A stretch of DNA of 64,000 nt from Bradyrhizobium sp. CCBAU 53340. Lineage in GTDB: Bacteria; Pseudomonadota; Alphaproteobacteria; Rhizobiales; Xanthobacteraceae. Positions 10,927-16,127 of this stretch are shown piece by piece. The notes beneath the pieces are model-generated. The model was not told the origin of the DNA and did no database searches. It saw only the letters and a program-made list of their open reading frames with translations. The stretch is taken from positions 4,340,001-4,404,000 of the forward strand of contig NZ_CP030055.1 in the NCBI RefSeq assembly GCF_015291645.1. The letters are read 5' to 3'. Each line of letters opens with the position of its first letter. Positions within the stretch are counted from its first letter, which is position 1. The position numbers and the translations under genes are program-made.

Positions 10927-11505
10927 ATGGCATCGCCCGACGATTTTTCACGGCTGCAATCCGCGATGAGCCAGGCGGTGAAGGCGCACTGGAAGGCCTT
11001 CCTGTTCGAGGGCATTCTGCTCGCCTTTCTCGGCATTGCGGCGCTGATCCTGCCACCGCTGGCAAGCCTCGCCATCACGATCTTCCTCGGCTGGATGTTC
11101 CTGATCAGCGGCATCGGCGGGTTGATCGCAACCTATTGGGCGCGCACCACGCCGGGCTTCTGGTGGTCGCTGATTTCGGCTGCGCTCGCGATCCTCGCTG
11201 GCATGATCCTGCTGGCGCGGCCGATGCAGGCCGTGCTGACACTGACCATCGTGCTCGGCGCCTATTTCCTCGCCGAAGGCGTCGCCAGCATCATGTACGC
11301 GCTGGAGCACCGCCGTGAGCTGAGCGGCCGCTGGTCATGGCTCCTGGTCTCGGGGTTCGTCGACATCGCGATTGCATTCATGGTGATCACGGGATTGCCG
11401 AGCTCGGCGGAATGGGCGATCGGCTTGCTCGTTGGCATCAATCTGCTGTTCGGCGGTGCAACCCTGATCGGCATGGCGCTGGCGGCACGCAAAAGCAACA
11501 GTTGA
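10927..11505 (+). CDS. HdeD family membrane protein
   Basis: A 192-residue protein of about six transmembrane helices in three pairs, matching the HdeD acid-resistance family: an N-terminal amphipathic segment, then FLFEGILLAFLGIAALILPP, FLGWMFLISGIGGLI, WWSLISAALAILAGMILLARP and later repeats of the same pattern. AGGAG lies nine bases before ATG 10927. In E. coli HdeD is linked to acid tolerance at high density; elsewhere its role is unproven. The gene lies on the same strand as the PrsW-like gene and may be cotranscribed with it. Confidence 0.88.
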   Translation: MASPDDFSRLQSAMSQAVKAHWKAFLFEGILLAFLGIAALILPPLASLAITIFLGWMFLISGIGGLIATYWARTTPGFWWSLISAALAILAGMILLARPMQAVLTLTIVLGAYFLAEGVASIMYALEHRRELSGRWSWLLVSGFVDIAIAFMVITGLPSSAEWAIGLLVGINLLFGGATLIGMALAARKSNS

Positions 11506-11537: not shown

Positions 11538-11566
11538 GTGACAATCCGCCAATGGCGCGCTATATG
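11538..11566 (+). promoter_or_regulatory. Candidate promoter of the aromatic leader transcript
   Basis: GTGACA (five of six matches to TTGACA), a 17-base spacer and TATATG. A start about seven bases further on would fall at or next to the A of the leader-peptide ATG (11574), giving a leaderless mRNA. That fits the absence of any ribosome site there. Confidence 0.5.
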
Positions 11567-11573
11567 GCCTGCC

Positions 11574-11654
11574 ATGATCACCGTCGCCACCAGCTATTTT
11601 TGGTACTTTAGCTACGACAGCTTGCTGGCGGCAGGAGGATCGCGCTCAATCTAA
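11574..11654 (+). CDS. Aromatic amino acid leader peptide
   Basis: A 26-codon frame, MITVATSYFWYFSYDSLLAA then GGSRSI, ending at TAA 11652-11654. Codons 8-14 read Tyr-Phe-Trp-Tyr-Phe-Ser-Tyr: six of seven codons are aromatic, including a Trp. No Shine-Dalgarno sequence precedes the ATG, and a candidate promoter would start transcription at the ATG itself. Its position, between two complementary RNA segments and upstream of a terminator that precedes the DAHP synthase gene, identifies it as a regulatory leader peptide. Ribosome stalling on uncharged Tyr, Phe or Trp tRNAs would report low aromatic amino acid supply. The peptide itself need not be stable. Confidence 0.85.
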   Translation: MITVATSYFWYFSYDSLLAAGGSRSI

Positions 11655-11704
11655 ATATTGAAGCAAACGTCCGAACAGCCGCCAGACCTGGCGGCTTTTT
11701 TATT
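11586..11704 (+). promoter_or_regulatory. Transcription attenuator of the DAHP synthase gene
   Basis: Four RNA segments are visible. Segment 1 (GCCACCAGC, 11586-11594) lies just before the aromatic codons and pairs, with one mismatch, with segment 2 (GCTGGCGGC, 11624-11632) just after them. Segment 2 can instead pair through CTGGCGGC with segment 3 (GCCGCCAG, 11678-11685). Segment 3 otherwise pairs with segment 4 (CTGGCGGCT, 11688-11696) to form the terminator. A ribosome stalled on the aromatic codons covers segment 1, frees 2 to pair with 3, and so lets transcription run into the DAHP synthase gene. Read-through is predicted when charged aromatic tRNAs are scarce. Confidence 0.82.
11677..11704 (+). 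terminator. Attenuator terminator
   Basis: AGCCGCCAG and CTGGCGGCT form a nine-base perfect stem with a very small loop, followed directly by six T residues. It lies 34 bp before the GTG start of the DAHP synthase and is the default outcome of the leader switch. Confidence 0.9.
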
Positions 11705-11738
11705 GGCCGGCAGGTTCTGAAACAAACAGGAGCCCGCC

Positions 11739-12824
11739 GTGCTGAGCACGACTGACGATCTTCGTATCCGCGAACTGAAAGAGCTGAGCACGCCTGAGGA
11801 CGTGATGCGGGAAGTGCCGCGCACGCTCACGGCGACCCGTGTGGTCATGGCAGCACGCAACGCCATCCACGCCATCCTCAATGGCCAGGACGACCGGCTT
11901 TTGGTCGTCGTCGGCCCCTGCTCGGTGCACGATCCCAAGGCCGCGCTCGACTACGCCGACCGCCTCGCACGCTTGCGCGAAGACCTCGCCGACCAGCTCG
12001 AGATCGTGATGCGGGTCTATTTCGAGAAGCCGCGCACCACGGTCGGCTGGAAGGGACTCATCAATGATCCCGATCTCGACGGCAGCTTCGACATCAATAA
12101 GGGCTTGCGGCTCGCGCGCAACGTGCTCTCGGCCGTCAACAATCTCGGCCTGCCCGCCGGCACCGAATTCCTCGACATGACGACGCCGCAATACATCGCC
12201 GACCTCGTCTCCTGGGCCGCGATCGGCGCGCGCACGACCGAGAGTCAGATCCATCGCGAGCTGGCCTCAGGGCTCTCCTGTCCGGTCGGCTTCAAGAACG
12301 GCACCGATGGCAATGTGCGCATCGCGGCGGACGCGGTGAAGTCAGCTTCGCATCCGCATCATTTCATGGCGGTGACGAAGCTTGGCCGTTCCGCGATCGC
12401 CTCGACCGCGGGCAACGAGGATTGCCACATCATCCTGCGCGGCGGAGCCAAGCCGAACTACGATGCCGCAAGCGTAGCTGCGGCCTGCAACGATCTGGCG
12501 AAATCCGGCGTCGCGCCGCTGGTGATGGTGGATGCGAGCCACGCCAATTCTAGCAAGAAGCCGGAGAACCAGCCGCTGGTCATGGCCGACATCGCCAGCC
12601 AGATCTCGGGCGGCGAGAAACGCATCATGGGCGTGATGGTCGAGAGCAATCTCGTCGCCGGTCGTCAGGATGTGGTTCCTGGCAAGGCGCTGACTTACGG
12701 CCAGAGCATCACCGACGGATGCATCGATTGGGCAACGACGGCGACTGTGCTCGAGCAACTTGCCGATGCGGTCGAGATCCGCCGGAACACCGCGCGCGCC
12801 GGACGACACGAGCGTTCCGCCTAA
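11739..12824 (+). CDS. aroG: 3-deoxy-7-phosphoheptulonate (DAHP) synthase, class I
   Basis: Condenses phosphoenolpyruvate and erythrose 4-phosphate in the first step of the shikimate pathway to Phe, Tyr and Trp. The 361 residues match the AroF/G/H class I enzyme: VVVGPCSVHDPKAALDYADR (59-65 is the GPCSVHD motif), EKPRTTVGWKG in the PEP site, GARTTESQIHRELASG, and a metal-site His in VMVDASHANSSKKP. GTG is the start, with AGGAG nine bases upstream. The symbol aroG is chosen for class; aroF is equally defensible. Transcription is predicted to be controlled by the leader and attenuator directly upstream. It stands alone; no trp or tyr gene is adjacent. Confidence 0.95.
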   Translation: MLSTTDDLRIRELKELSTPEDVMREVPRTLTATRVVMAARNAIHAILNGQDDRLLVVVGPCSVHDPKAALDYADRLARLREDLADQLEIVMRVYFEKPRTTVGWKGLINDPDLDGSFDINKGLRLARNVLSAVNNLGLPAGTEFLDMTTPQYIADLVSWAAIGARTTESQIHRELASGLSCPVGFKNGTDGNVRIAADAVKSASHPHHFMAVTKLGRSAIASTAGNEDCHIILRGGAKPNYDAASVAAACNDLAKSGVAPLVMVDASHANSSKKPENQPLVMADIASQISGGEKRIMGVMVESNLVAGRQDVVPGKALTYGQSITDGCIDWATTATVLEQLADAVEIRRNTARAGRHERSA

Positions 12825-13254: not shown

Positions 13255-14349
13255 TCAGGTCTCGGGCGGATAAAGATGAACGTCGCCACAATAGTCCATG
13301 ATACGATAGCGCGTTTCCGTCACCACATCACCTGCATCGGCTGCGGTATTTTGCGCCGCCAACACATAATTCGGTCCGACCGGCGATTTGCCGGCGCCGC
13401 CGGGAATGTCGATCACATAGTCCGGCTGACACAGTCCTGACACTCGACCGCGCAGCTGCCGCATCAATTCCTGCCCGTGCGCCAGCGTCGTACGCAGATG
13501 CGCCGTGCCGGGCGCAAGATCACCGTGATGCAAGTAGTACGGCTTGATCCGGCACTCGACGAACGCCCGCATCAAATCCGACAGAGCTGCGACATTGTCA
13601 TTGACGCCGCGCAAGAGCACGGACTGGCTCACCATGGGAATGCCGGCGTCGACCAACCGCGCACAGGCTTCGCGGGCCGGCCCCGTCAGCTCGCGCGCGT
13701 GATTGGCATGCAGCGCGACCCAGGTGGTTGCGCCCTCGACCTTGACGGCTGCGACCATCTCGTCACTGATGCGCGCGGGATCGGCCACCGGCACGCGGGT
13801 ATGAAGACGGATGATCTTGACGTGATCGATCGCAGCGAGATCGGCCATGATCTCGCCCATCCGGCGCGGCGACAACATCAAGGGATCACCGCCGGTCAGG
13901 ATCACCTCCCAGATCTCGCTATGCCCGCGGATATAGTCGATCGCGGCGCGATAGGCCGCCTCGGGCAGCGCGTTCTCCTTGCCAGGCCCGACCATCTCGC
14001 GGCGGAAGCAGAAACGGCAGTACACTGCGCAGACGTGAACGAGCTTAAACAGCACGCGATCGGGATAGCGGTGCACGATGCCGGGAACCGGCGAATGCGG
14101 ATGATCGCCGATCGGATCGGCGTTCTCGCCAGGCTGCATCTCGAGCTCAGCGGCCGTTGGAATAAATTGGCGCGCGATGGGATCGTCGGGATCGGATTTG
14201 TCGATCAGATCGACCAGCGCCGGCGTGATCGCAACCGCATAGCGCGCGGCAACACGCTCGAGCGCGGGAAGCGCCGTGGCCGGCACGAGGTCCGCGGCCA
14301 CAAGTTCGGCCGGCTCGCGCAATGTCCGTGCAAGATTGGTCTTCGTCAT
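13255..14349 (-). CDS. epmB: EF-P beta-lysylation protein EpmB (lysine 2,3-aminomutase family)
   Basis: A radical-SAM, PLP-dependent aminomutase of 364 residues that converts (S)-alpha-lysine to (R)-beta-lysine, the group attached to elongation factor P. The [4Fe-4S]/SAM motif CAVYCRFC occupies residues 107-114, and EVILTGGDPLML is the glycine-rich SAM motif of this family. The location settles the call: epmB overlaps epmA by four bases (ATGA at 14349-14346), implying translational coupling, and efp is divergent next door. The long C-terminal dimerisation region of clostridial lysine aminomutases is missing, as is usual for EpmB. Confidence 0.95.
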   Translation of the reverse strand: MTKTNLARTLREPAELVAADLVPATALPALERVAARYAVAITPALVDLIDKSDPDDPIARQFIPTAAELEMQPGENADPIGDHPHSPVPGIVHRYPDRVLFKLVHVCAVYCRFCFRREMVGPGKENALPEAAYRAAIDYIRGHSEIWEVILTGGDPLMLSPRRMGEIMADLAAIDHVKIIRLHTRVPVADPARISDEMVAAVKVEGATTWVALHANHARELTGPAREACARLVDAGIPMVSQSVLLRGVNDNVAALSDLMRAFVECRIKPYYLHHGDLAPGTAHLRTTLAHGQELMRQLRGRVSGLCQPDYVIDIPGGAGKSPVGPNYVLAAQNTAADAGDVVTETRYRIMDYCGDVHLYPPET

Positions 14350-15398
14350 CTCTCATCCGCAGGCGGCGTCCACACCACCTGATCAATCCGTGTTGCACCG
14401 CTCGCCAGCATCACCAGCCGGTCAAAGCCGAGCGCGACGCCGCTTGCTTCCGGCATTGCGGCGACCGCCGCCAGAAAATCCTCGTCCAGCGGATAGGCCT
14501 CGCCGTAGCGGCGCTGCTTCTCCGCCATCGATTCCGTGAAGCGCTCGCGCTGCTCCTCGGCGTCGGTCAGTTCGCCAAAGCCGTTGGCCAGCTCGACACC
14601 GCAGGCATAGACCTCGAACCGTTCCGCTACCCTGGGATCGCCTGCCTTCACCCGCGCTAGCGCCGCCTCTGGAGATGGGTATTCGAACAGGATGGTCAAA
14701 CGCCCTTGTCCCAGATGCGGCTCGACGTGCTCGACCAGGACCTTGCTGAAGATGTCCGACCAGGTGTCGTCCTCGGCCACGCGAACCTTGCCGGCGGCCG
14801 CCTGGGCGAGCGCGGCACGGTTACCCTCGGCGCCCGAGATTGTCGACAGCAGGTCGACCCCGGCGAAGCGATCGAAGGCGTCCGCGACCGTCAACAGTTC
14901 CGGCTCGGCGAAGGGATCGGCGCTCCGGCCTCGGAACGAAAAGGTCCCGATTCCGGTCGCCTGCGCCGCCCGGGCGATGACCACCACGGTGTCAGCCATG
15001 ATGGCATCATAGGGGGCAGCCGCCCGGTACCATTCCAGCATGGTGAATTCGGGCAGATGCAGGTCGCCACGTTCGCGGTCACGGAACACCCGGGCGAACT
15101 CGAAAATCCGCGCCTCGCCGGCCGCCAACAGCTTCTTGCAGGCGAATTCGGGCGAAGTCCGCAAATATCGGCTGGCCCGGCTGCCATCCGGCCGCATGAT
15201 CTCGGTCCGGGGGGCGTGCAAATGGGTTTCGTTGCCCGGGGAGACTTGAAGGACCGAGGTTTCGACCTCGACAAAGCCCTGCTCGCCGAAAAAGCCCCTC
15301 AGCGACGCGGTAATGGCCCCCCTCGCCTGGAGGAATGGCCGGCGGTCGAGATGCCGGCTGGGCGTCCAGAATGGCGAAATCGGCTTGTCCCCAGCCAT
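14346..15398 (-). CDS. epmA: EF-P lysyl-lysine ligase EpmA
   Basis: A 350-residue paralogue of the catalytic domain of class II lysyl-tRNA synthetase (PoxA/GenX/YjeA). It activates beta-lysine and ligates it to a lysine of EF-P instead of a tRNA. Class II motif 2 appears as FEFARVFRDRERGDLHLPEF and motif 3 as SGVALGFDRLVML near the C terminus; ELANGFGELTDAEEQRERF is the substrate region. There is no anticodon-binding domain, as expected. ATG 15398 is chosen by homology (MAGDKPISPFWTP). First gene of the epmA-epmB operon, divergent from efp across about 160 bp. Confidence 0.95.
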   Translation of the reverse strand: MAGDKPISPFWTPSRHLDRRPFLQARGAITASLRGFFGEQGFVEVETSVLQVSPGNETHLHAPRTEIMRPDGSRASRYLRTSPEFACKKLLAAGEARIFEFARVFRDRERGDLHLPEFTMLEWYRAAAPYDAIMADTVVVIARAAQATGIGTFSFRGRSADPFAEPELLTVADAFDRFAGVDLLSTISGAEGNRAALAQAAAGKVRVAEDDTWSDIFSKVLVEHVEPHLGQGRLTILFEYPSPEAALARVKAGDPRVAERFEVYACGVELANGFGELTDAEEQRERFTESMAEKQRRYGEAYPLDEDFLAAVAAMPEASGVALGFDRLVMLASGATRIDQVVWTPPADER

Positions 15399-15560
15399 TA
15401 ACCGAGCGCCTCGCAGGCCAGCAAAGTGCTGGCATCGAACCGCAAAATCAGTATGTTGCGGCCCGAAACGGGCGCCGAGGCCTGATTTGAGGCCCCAAGT
15501 CCCCCATTGATTTGACCACGTCCTGGCCTGAGCCGGGCCAAGCAAGCAGGAAATATAGCT

Positions 15561-16127
15561 TTGAGAGTCATCGCCAGTTCTATTCGCAAGGGCAACGTGA
15601 TCGAGCAAGACGGCAAACTTTATGTCGTCGTGAGCGCCGAGAACATCCATCCCGGCAAGGGCACGCCGGTCAGCCAGATCGAAATGCGCCGAATTTCGGA
15701 CGGGGTAAAGATCTCCGAGCGCTACAAGACCACTGACCAGGTCGAAAAGGCCACGATCGAAGAGCGCAACTACACCTTCCTGTATGAAGATGGCGACGGT
15801 TTCCACTTCATGAACCCCGAGACCTACGATCAGGTCCAGGTCCCCAAGGACGTCGTCGGCGATGCCGCCGCCTATCTTCAGCCAGACATGACCGTCAAGC
15901 TGTCGTTGCACGACGTCAACGTTGTCTCGCTCGCTCTGCCGCAGCGCGTGACGCTTGAAGTCGTCGAGACCGAGCCGGTGACCAAGGGCCAGACCGCCTC
16001 GTCGTCCTACAAGCCGGCGGTGCTCTCCAACGGCATCCGCACCACCGTGCCGCCGCACATTTCGGTTGGCACCCGGATCGTGGTGATGACCGAAGACGGC
16101 TCCTACTCCGAGCGCGCGAAGGACTAA
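15561..16127 (+). CDS. efp: Elongation factor P
   Basis: A 188-residue EF-P, which relieves ribosome stalling at polyproline. It has the three-domain architecture of the family: an N-terminal KOW-like domain with the loop [10 protein letters not shown], where Lys33 is the expected site of beta-lysylation, then two OB-type domains ending [20 protein letters not shown]. The start is a TTG, unusual for such an abundant protein, but AGGAA is well placed before it and the N terminus ([12 protein letters not shown]) is complete. The modifying enzymes epmA and epmB are adjacent and divergent, and Lys rather than Arg in the loop agrees with them. Confidence 0.96.

Follow-up and report, generated by a model that had tools for sequence, protein, structure and literature searches.

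Transcription of a class I DAHP synthase gene (aroG) of Bradyrhizobium sp. CCBAU 53340 is, judging from the sequence, very probably controlled by a ribosome-mediated attenuator. This interpretation, which was offered in an earlier note on the same DNA and is supported by the present analysis, draws directly on the sequence elements, their conservation, their linkage to the gene and the folds favoured at each ribosome position. Within the window, by which is meant the whole 64-kb stretch of DNA that was analysed, a leader ORF encoding MITVATSYFWYFSYDSLLAAGGSRSI, four segments capable of pairing and a terminator with a T6 tract precede the DAHP synthase gene, which begins with GTG at 11739. The locus combines a leader ORF containing codons for the end products, an intrinsic terminator placed before the gene and an antiterminator (segments 2 and 3, or 2:3) that is mutually exclusive with the terminator (3:4). 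The individual features are as follows:

11538..11566, + strand: promoter-like sequence, GTGACA and TATATG separated by 17 nt, best among the positions scanned, with similar spacing in most alphaproteobacterial relatives
11574..11654, + strand: leader peptide ORF MITVATSYFWYFSYDSLLAAGGSRSI, 26 codons, from ATG 11574 to the stop codon TAA at 11652-11654
11586..11594, + strand: segment 1, GCCACCAGC, pairing with segment 2 with one A-C mismatch; weak beyond near kin
11595..11615, + strand: control codons TAT TTT TGG TAC TTT AGC TAC (Tyr Phe Trp Tyr Phe Ser Tyr)
11624..11632, + strand: segment 2, GCTGGCGGC, within the leader ORF
11633..11642, + strand: purine-rich AGGAGGATCG 3' of segment 2, a predicted antiterminator extension that is also SD-like
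11668..11685, + strand: segment 3, (A)GCCGCCAG, at 11677-11685, plus an upstream CGTCC able to lengthen the antiterminator
11688..11701, + strand: segment 4, CTGGCGGCT, at 11688-11696 and T6 tract at 11696-11701; intrinsic terminator, hairpin 11677-11696
11728..11732, + strand: aroG ribosome site AGGAG, identified by eye
11739..12824, + strand: class I DAHP synthase gene of aroFGH type, PF00793, GTG start

Leader transcript and target enzyme

The 26-codon frame with the run YFWYFSY, the four segments, the six T residues and aroG all lie where the earlier note had placed them, and its observation that the aromatic codons separate segments 1 and 2 was confirmed, with 11595-11615 falling between 11586-11594 and 11624-11632. 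The ribosome site that it had called good is likewise evident by eye (AGGAG at 11728-11732), and the assignment of aroG as a DAHP synthase gene was borne out by a TIGR00034 score of 532.7 bits, versus a curated cut-off of 173.2, together with a match to PF00793. YFWYFSY is the sole 7-codon window with six aromatic codons among 112,296 stop-free windows in the six frames of the 64 kb, and the run is therefore not attributable to chance. On its other side aroG is adjoined by a lysine-2,3-aminomutase-like radical SAM gene (Pfam; window 13258-16058, - strand). A second ORF there appears to contain an EpmA-type lysyl-tRNA synthetase paralogue, and the two genes are perhaps an EF-P modification pair.

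In the program-made ORF list the leader frame runs upstream to another ATG at 11337. The start was assigned to ATG 11574 on the basis of its place in relatives and of the promoter-like sequence ending 7 nt before it. The -10-like box was chosen as the best among the positions scanned. In the alphaproteobacterial relatives that were covered, its end is mostly separated from the ATG by 6-10 nt, or by 12-13 nt in L005, L006, L022 and L080, and in several Massilia, Rugamonas and Janthinobacterium sequences such a box lies approximately 25 nt upstream; a stricter consensus promoter scan found no promoter at the leader. No ribosome site precedes this leader, and an SD-like motif was found before only 4 of 75 leaders. 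Since the box is close to the ATG and few leaders have an SD-like motif, the leader ORF probably begins a leaderless mRNA. A leaderless leader transcript is described for Sinorhizobium meliloti trpL (PMC10117765, available text), and 320 transcription start sites located at most 10 nt from a start codon are given for Bradyrhizobium japonicum in the text available of PMC4842269.

DAHP synthases of both classes are encoded in the genome, one of each, and no aromatic leader was seen by eye upstream of the class II gene. The earlier claim that the leader controls entry to the shikimate pathway would consequently hold for the class I gene only, i.e. for one of two isoenzymes; the attenuator would raise the supply of enzyme during a shortage of aromatic amino acids. 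Control of DAHP synthases by TyrR and TrpR is known from enteric bacteria. The TrpR model found no match in the Bradyrhizobium genome, and the TyrR-type HTH domain PF18024 gave three matches above cut-off, two of which lie in a response-regulator-like and a LysR-like ORF (labels assigned by eye), so that a TyrR may still be present. According to the accessible part of PMC5343134, many groups of gammaproteobacteria have conserved TyrR and TrpR, whereas other classes lack them.

Alternative pairings and ribosome position

Pairings 2:3 and 3:4 are perfect across eight pairs, and among the nine positions of 1:2 there is a single A-C mismatch. Folding energies were -15.0 kcal/mol (z -4.15) for the hairpin of the terminator and -27.1 kcal/mol (z -4.32) for that of 2:3, each better than 200 of 200 dinucleotide shuffles, whereas 1:2 alone gave a z of -1.52, with 14 of 200 shuffles equally good. 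In alignment A2 the cells of terminator 3:4 are 98.9% paired, with 20 double-change cells and 0 of 500 shuffles as high; the corresponding values in the narrower alignment A1 are 99.7% and 12 double-change cells. Antiterminator 2:3 is 91.6% paired in A2, with six double-change cells (1 of 500 shuffles as high), and 89.4% paired in A1, with two such cells (260 of 500 shuffles as high). Over 40 relatives, protector 1:2 is 68.6% paired versus 58.3% after a 3-column slide, and its double-change cells are no more numerous than in the slide (15 vs 15). Compensating changes, which had been proposed as a check of the four segments, are therefore clear for 3:4 and modest for 2:3 in A2, but those of 2:3 in A1 and of 1:2 do not rise above controls. 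The classic order of 1:2, 2:3 and 3:4 put forward in the earlier note is thus upheld by covariation for the latter two pairings, whereas 1:2 is convincing only in Bradyrhizobium and its near kin.

Ribosome positions were simulated with a 30-nt mask, a size assumed from general knowledge. With the A site on Tyr8, Phe9, Trp10 or Tyr11, 2:3 was favoured even in the full RNA. With the A site on Phe12 or Tyr14, 2:3 was favoured before segment 4 is made but the equilibrium fold of the full RNA was 1:2 plus 3:4, so that antitermination from these codons would require 2:3 to have formed earlier. Simulated ribosomes from 11619 to 11646 gave 3:4 in the full RNA, and those from 11622 to 11643 left no 2:3 pair at either stage; a ribosome on the stop codon left segment 2 uncovered, and the full RNA folded as 1:2 plus 3:4. 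Ribosome-free RNA ending at 11686 or 11690 adopted 2:3, and only the full RNA adopted 1:2 plus 3:4. Termination without translation is hence not assured, its outcome depending on folding speed.

The purine-rich stretch 3' of segment 2 might be an SD-like parking site, which would slow the ribosome over segment 2 and favour termination. The strongest anti-SD site of the leader lies there, 12 nt before the stop codon, in Bradyrhizobium and Mesorhizobium sequences; the codons GCA GGA GGA are rare in the window (0.10, 0.07 and 0.07), and segment 2 would be masked by a ribosome translating them. Across 120 leaders this stretch contains 148 Gly codons, of which 128 are GGA or GGG and 97 are GGA, in a count that keeps near-copies and includes at least one locus twice, and GGC has a share of 0.71 of the Gly codons in 29 long ORFs of the window. 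The stretch is SD-like in many alphaproteobacteria, but mostly weaker in betaproteobacterial sequences, and in comparison with letter shuffles only 21 of 75 sequences, chiefly those of near kin, reached p<0.05. The same conservation is explained by pairing with the TCC or CCC that the stretch faces before segment 3 in many sequences. Over 71 non-redundant sequences the mean energy of the duplex between the stretch and this partner was -7.76, versus -6.78 with permuted partners, and 0 of 5000 permutations were as low; the whole of 2:3 also fitted better than in all 5000 partner permutations, a test that is uncorrected for relatedness of the sequences. Taken singly, only 14 of the 71 sequences reached p<=0.05 for the extension pairing. 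These pairing tests made an extension of the antiterminator the better explanation, and parking is accordingly considered unlikely. The antiterminator is probably longer than drawn in the earlier note, with the purine-rich stretch extending it beyond segment 2.

Distribution and control codons

Among the best 80 of 591 matches in a protein scan, the aroG product of the window has its closest named relatives in Bradyrhizobium (95% identical). The earlier note had held that relatives lacking the frame or the pairing would speak against the attenuator, but both are present at every gene found in the family and in the class sample: within the family, the class I gene occurs in 15 of 149 genomes with leader and terminator in 15 of 15, and within the class the gene occurs in 9 of 337 genomes with the element at 9 of 9. 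A covariance-type search gave the same picture, in that model R1, built from 40 sequences with the 3:4 pairs only, scored at least 74 bits in 9 of the 337 class genomes, these being the same nine that hold the gene, with the next match at 35.4 bits. Eight of the nine strong matches are directly upstream of the gene; in the ninth genome (G335, locus L105) the assembly is broken within the terminator hairpin, with the leader on another contig and the gene's contig beginning inside the terminator. At an E value of 0.001 R1 matches 79 of 337 genomes, all places beyond the nine strong ones being at or below 35.4 bits, and many weak matches cover the terminator end only; two of them were inspected. 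The second-best of 12 model matches up to E 10 in the Bradyrhizobium genome itself (L098, 24.5 bits) is a terminator behind another gene. The best weak match in the class (L121, 35.4 bits) is at the end of an ORF that resembles argB.

Across the phylum the class I gene occurs in 225 of 398 genomes. Model R2 (44 sequences; cut-off E<=1e-7) matched 42 of 369 phylum genomes at one place each, so that the majority of class I gene carriers went unmatched. Each of the 42 matches is followed by a DAHP synthase gene at a distance of 39-144 nt: 40 precede listed genes, and the remaining two, in G701 and G785, were checked separately and lie 100 and 92 nt upstream. When loci were chosen by protein similarity, 77 of 95 matched at 50 bits or more, two matched weakly (L073 and L067) and 16 did not match, among them L059 with only 52 nt of upstream DNA. 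The element was found also at 29 of 31 further loci, the misses being L105, owing to the contig break, and L156; these loci had been selected because their proteins resemble that of the window (best 80 of 591), and the fraction is therefore no census. The element is carried, among other named genera, by Bradyrhizobium, Mesorhizobium, Devosia, Methylosinus and Leisingera, as well as by Bordetella, Burkholderia-type and Massilia-type genera, Xanthomonas, Dyella and Rhodanobacter.

In a quick, unrooted protein tree of 92 of 140 rows, from which four rows of unsure state and near-copies were dropped, 76 rows have the element and 16 do not, and all 35 alphaproteobacterial rows have it; rows without it include Pantoea, two Vibrionaceae, Methylophilaceae and Zoogloeaceae. 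The element state requires 7 changes on the tree versus 15.1 when shuffled, which suggests an old element staying with its gene. Eight genomes have two class I copies, and in these the leader precedes the copy nearer to the window's. The aromatic-ORF script detected a convincing leader before none of the eight second copies (L204-L211); seven had no ORF at the aromatic threshold, and L204 passed only via an FFF run over a T tract. A separate observation concerns L071, on a metagenome-assembled contig labelled Anaerolineae, where an aromatic-rich ORF (MSRYFSFFSWYGYFAAGQV...) lies approximately 194 nt before a DAHP synthase gene. No terminator was detected upstream of that gene and no model matched, and the locus represents either another leader type or a binning error.

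Control codons were surveyed at 140 loci, of which 18 without element or upstream DNA and two unreadable by the script were excluded; the most aromatic short ORF was taken at each locus, and near-copies were kept. The conservation of aromatic codons anticipated in the earlier note was evident, Phe and Tyr each being present in 120 of 120 leaders. Its proposal that all three aromatic amino acids are sensed together holds for the codons of the present leader, which specify Tyr, Phe and Trp, but does not extend to every relative, as Trp occurs in only 90 of 120 leaders. Among 71 non-redundant sequences the distance from the ATG to the core of segment 2 ranges from 44 to 59 nt with one phase kept in 59, the control codons interchange synonymously (TAT/TAC 85/87, TTT/TTC 164/50), and in 40 sequences 11 nt separate the end of the aromatic codons from the segment 2 core. 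Such phase, codon exchange and spacing are the pattern expected if the sensor is translated and the ribosome covers a constant length of RNA.

Two groups depart from the common form. One clade (L056, L076, L190 and L191) has altered runs (RFYRPY, RFYSY, RFYWY), with a terminator arm CCGCTAG facing CTGGCGG in L076, L190 and L191, and may follow a differing sensing rule. The leaders of L184-L189 (family f186) read YFWFS and score only 47-54 bits with R2; their proteins form one long-branched group in the tree, and they are possibly a distinct subfamily.

The codon data bear also on what is sensed, and how. It is somewhat doubtful that the response is in practice to one amino acid only, e.g. Phe, with the other codons as passengers. 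Corynebacterium aroF offers a precedent, in that it is described as responding to Phe and not to Tyr despite a Phe-Tyr-Phe leader (PMC11802643, available portion), and 30 of the 120 leaders have no Trp codon; however, Tyr and Phe are both invariably present, and the simulated stalls at Tyr8, Phe9, Trp10 and Tyr11 all lead to 2:3. It is far less probable that the principal role of the locus is to supply a small RNA or trans-acting peptide, with read-through into aroG as a side product. The terminated product would be an RNA of about 128 nt, and trans roles are described in Sinorhizobium, where rnTrpL is called a dual-function RNA and peTrpL functional (PMC10117765, in the text available), but every strong model match precedes a DAHP synthase gene and the antiterminator pairing is kept; a trans role could, moreover, coexist with attenuation. 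If an aromatic compound were instead sensed directly, by a ligand-binding riboswitch or a protein-bound attenuator, the ORF would be incidental; riboswitches, too, use a terminator and a competing hairpin. With this explanation, however, universal Phe and Tyr codons, their synonymous exchange and the kept phase would be unexpected, and no Rfam family reached its gathering score here or in eight relatives, making it extremely improbable. Ribosome-mediated attenuation remains the preferred reading.

Proposed mechanism and known systems

The scheme that we infer covers where transcription starts, translation of the leader, termination in the cell and the response to amino acids. In it, a leaderless transcript would begin at or close to the leader's ATG. 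Should charged Tyr, Phe or Trp tRNA be short, the ribosome would stall at YFWYFSY, covering segment 1 and leaving segment 2 free. Segment 2 and its purine-rich extension could then pair with segment 3 and the preceding CGTCC, and with 2:3 formed no terminator would arise and aroG would be transcribed. With all three amino acids plentiful, the ribosome would move over segment 2, 3:4 would form and transcription would stop at the T tract. We give roughly even chances to a wider reading, in which the leader belongs to an old attenuator family of alpha-, beta- and some gammaproteobacteria that forms a regulator-gene unit with a class I DAHP synthase of patchy distribution and is carried along with it, acts as an OR gate over the charging of Phe, Tyr and, in some lineages, Trp tRNAs, and replaces the enteric control by TyrR and TrpR, its hallmarks being a leaderless mRNA, a segment 2 within the ORF and an extended antiterminator. 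Such an attenuator could explain control of shikimate-pathway entry in many alpha- and betaproteobacteria, and the leader would lend itself to sensing the aromatic amino acid status of a cell; natural variants with and without Trp codons make the rule of mixed-leader sensing directly testable.

E. coli pheL is a leader peptide attenuator with Phe codons. It differs from the present leader in controlling pheA, which it precedes (PMC11802643, available portion), and the corresponding Rfam family, Phe_leader RF01859, showed only weak model similarity (21.1 bits, versus a gathering score of 55). Phe_leader, RNAI, BjrC1505 and isrK were the four Rfam matches up to E 10 at the leader, all far below threshold and taken as chance or shared terminator shape, and Trp_leader RF00513 was not among them; in Rfam 15 no family was at gathering score at the leader or in the eight relatives. 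No account of this proteobacterial leader was found in the searched literature (including the available parts of PMC5082802 and PMC2965389), subscription papers lying mostly outside the search. The mechanism is a classic one, familiar from trp, phe and Corynebacterium aroR-aroF, whereas the proteobacterial family is apparently undescribed, in that we found no description of it.

The original account of the C. glutamicum aroR leader before aroF is reportedly that of Neshat in 2014. Compared by description only, aroR-aroF likewise has an aromatic leader peptide and attenuation before a DAHP synthase gene, but in an actinobacterium, and with a run given as Phe-Tyr-Phe and no Trp mentioned in the available portions of PMC11802643 and PMC4046766. 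The Acholeplasma uORFC-13-1 motif, also compared by description only, similarly comprises a predicted uORF with one or more Phe codons and a terminator before aroF, a DAHP synthase gene, but has a ribosome site and, in the accessible part of PMC8632094, is reported only from Acholeplasma and unassigned environmental sequences. Putative attenuators before the aroA-tyrA operon are mentioned for two Vibrio species (PMC1173090, in part). Sinorhizobium meliloti trpL (rnTrpL/peTrpL) shares with the present leader a leaderless ORF, attenuation in an aromatic pathway and an alphaproteobacterial host, but is described as a tryptophan attenuator of 14 residues that precedes trpE (PMC10117765, available text).
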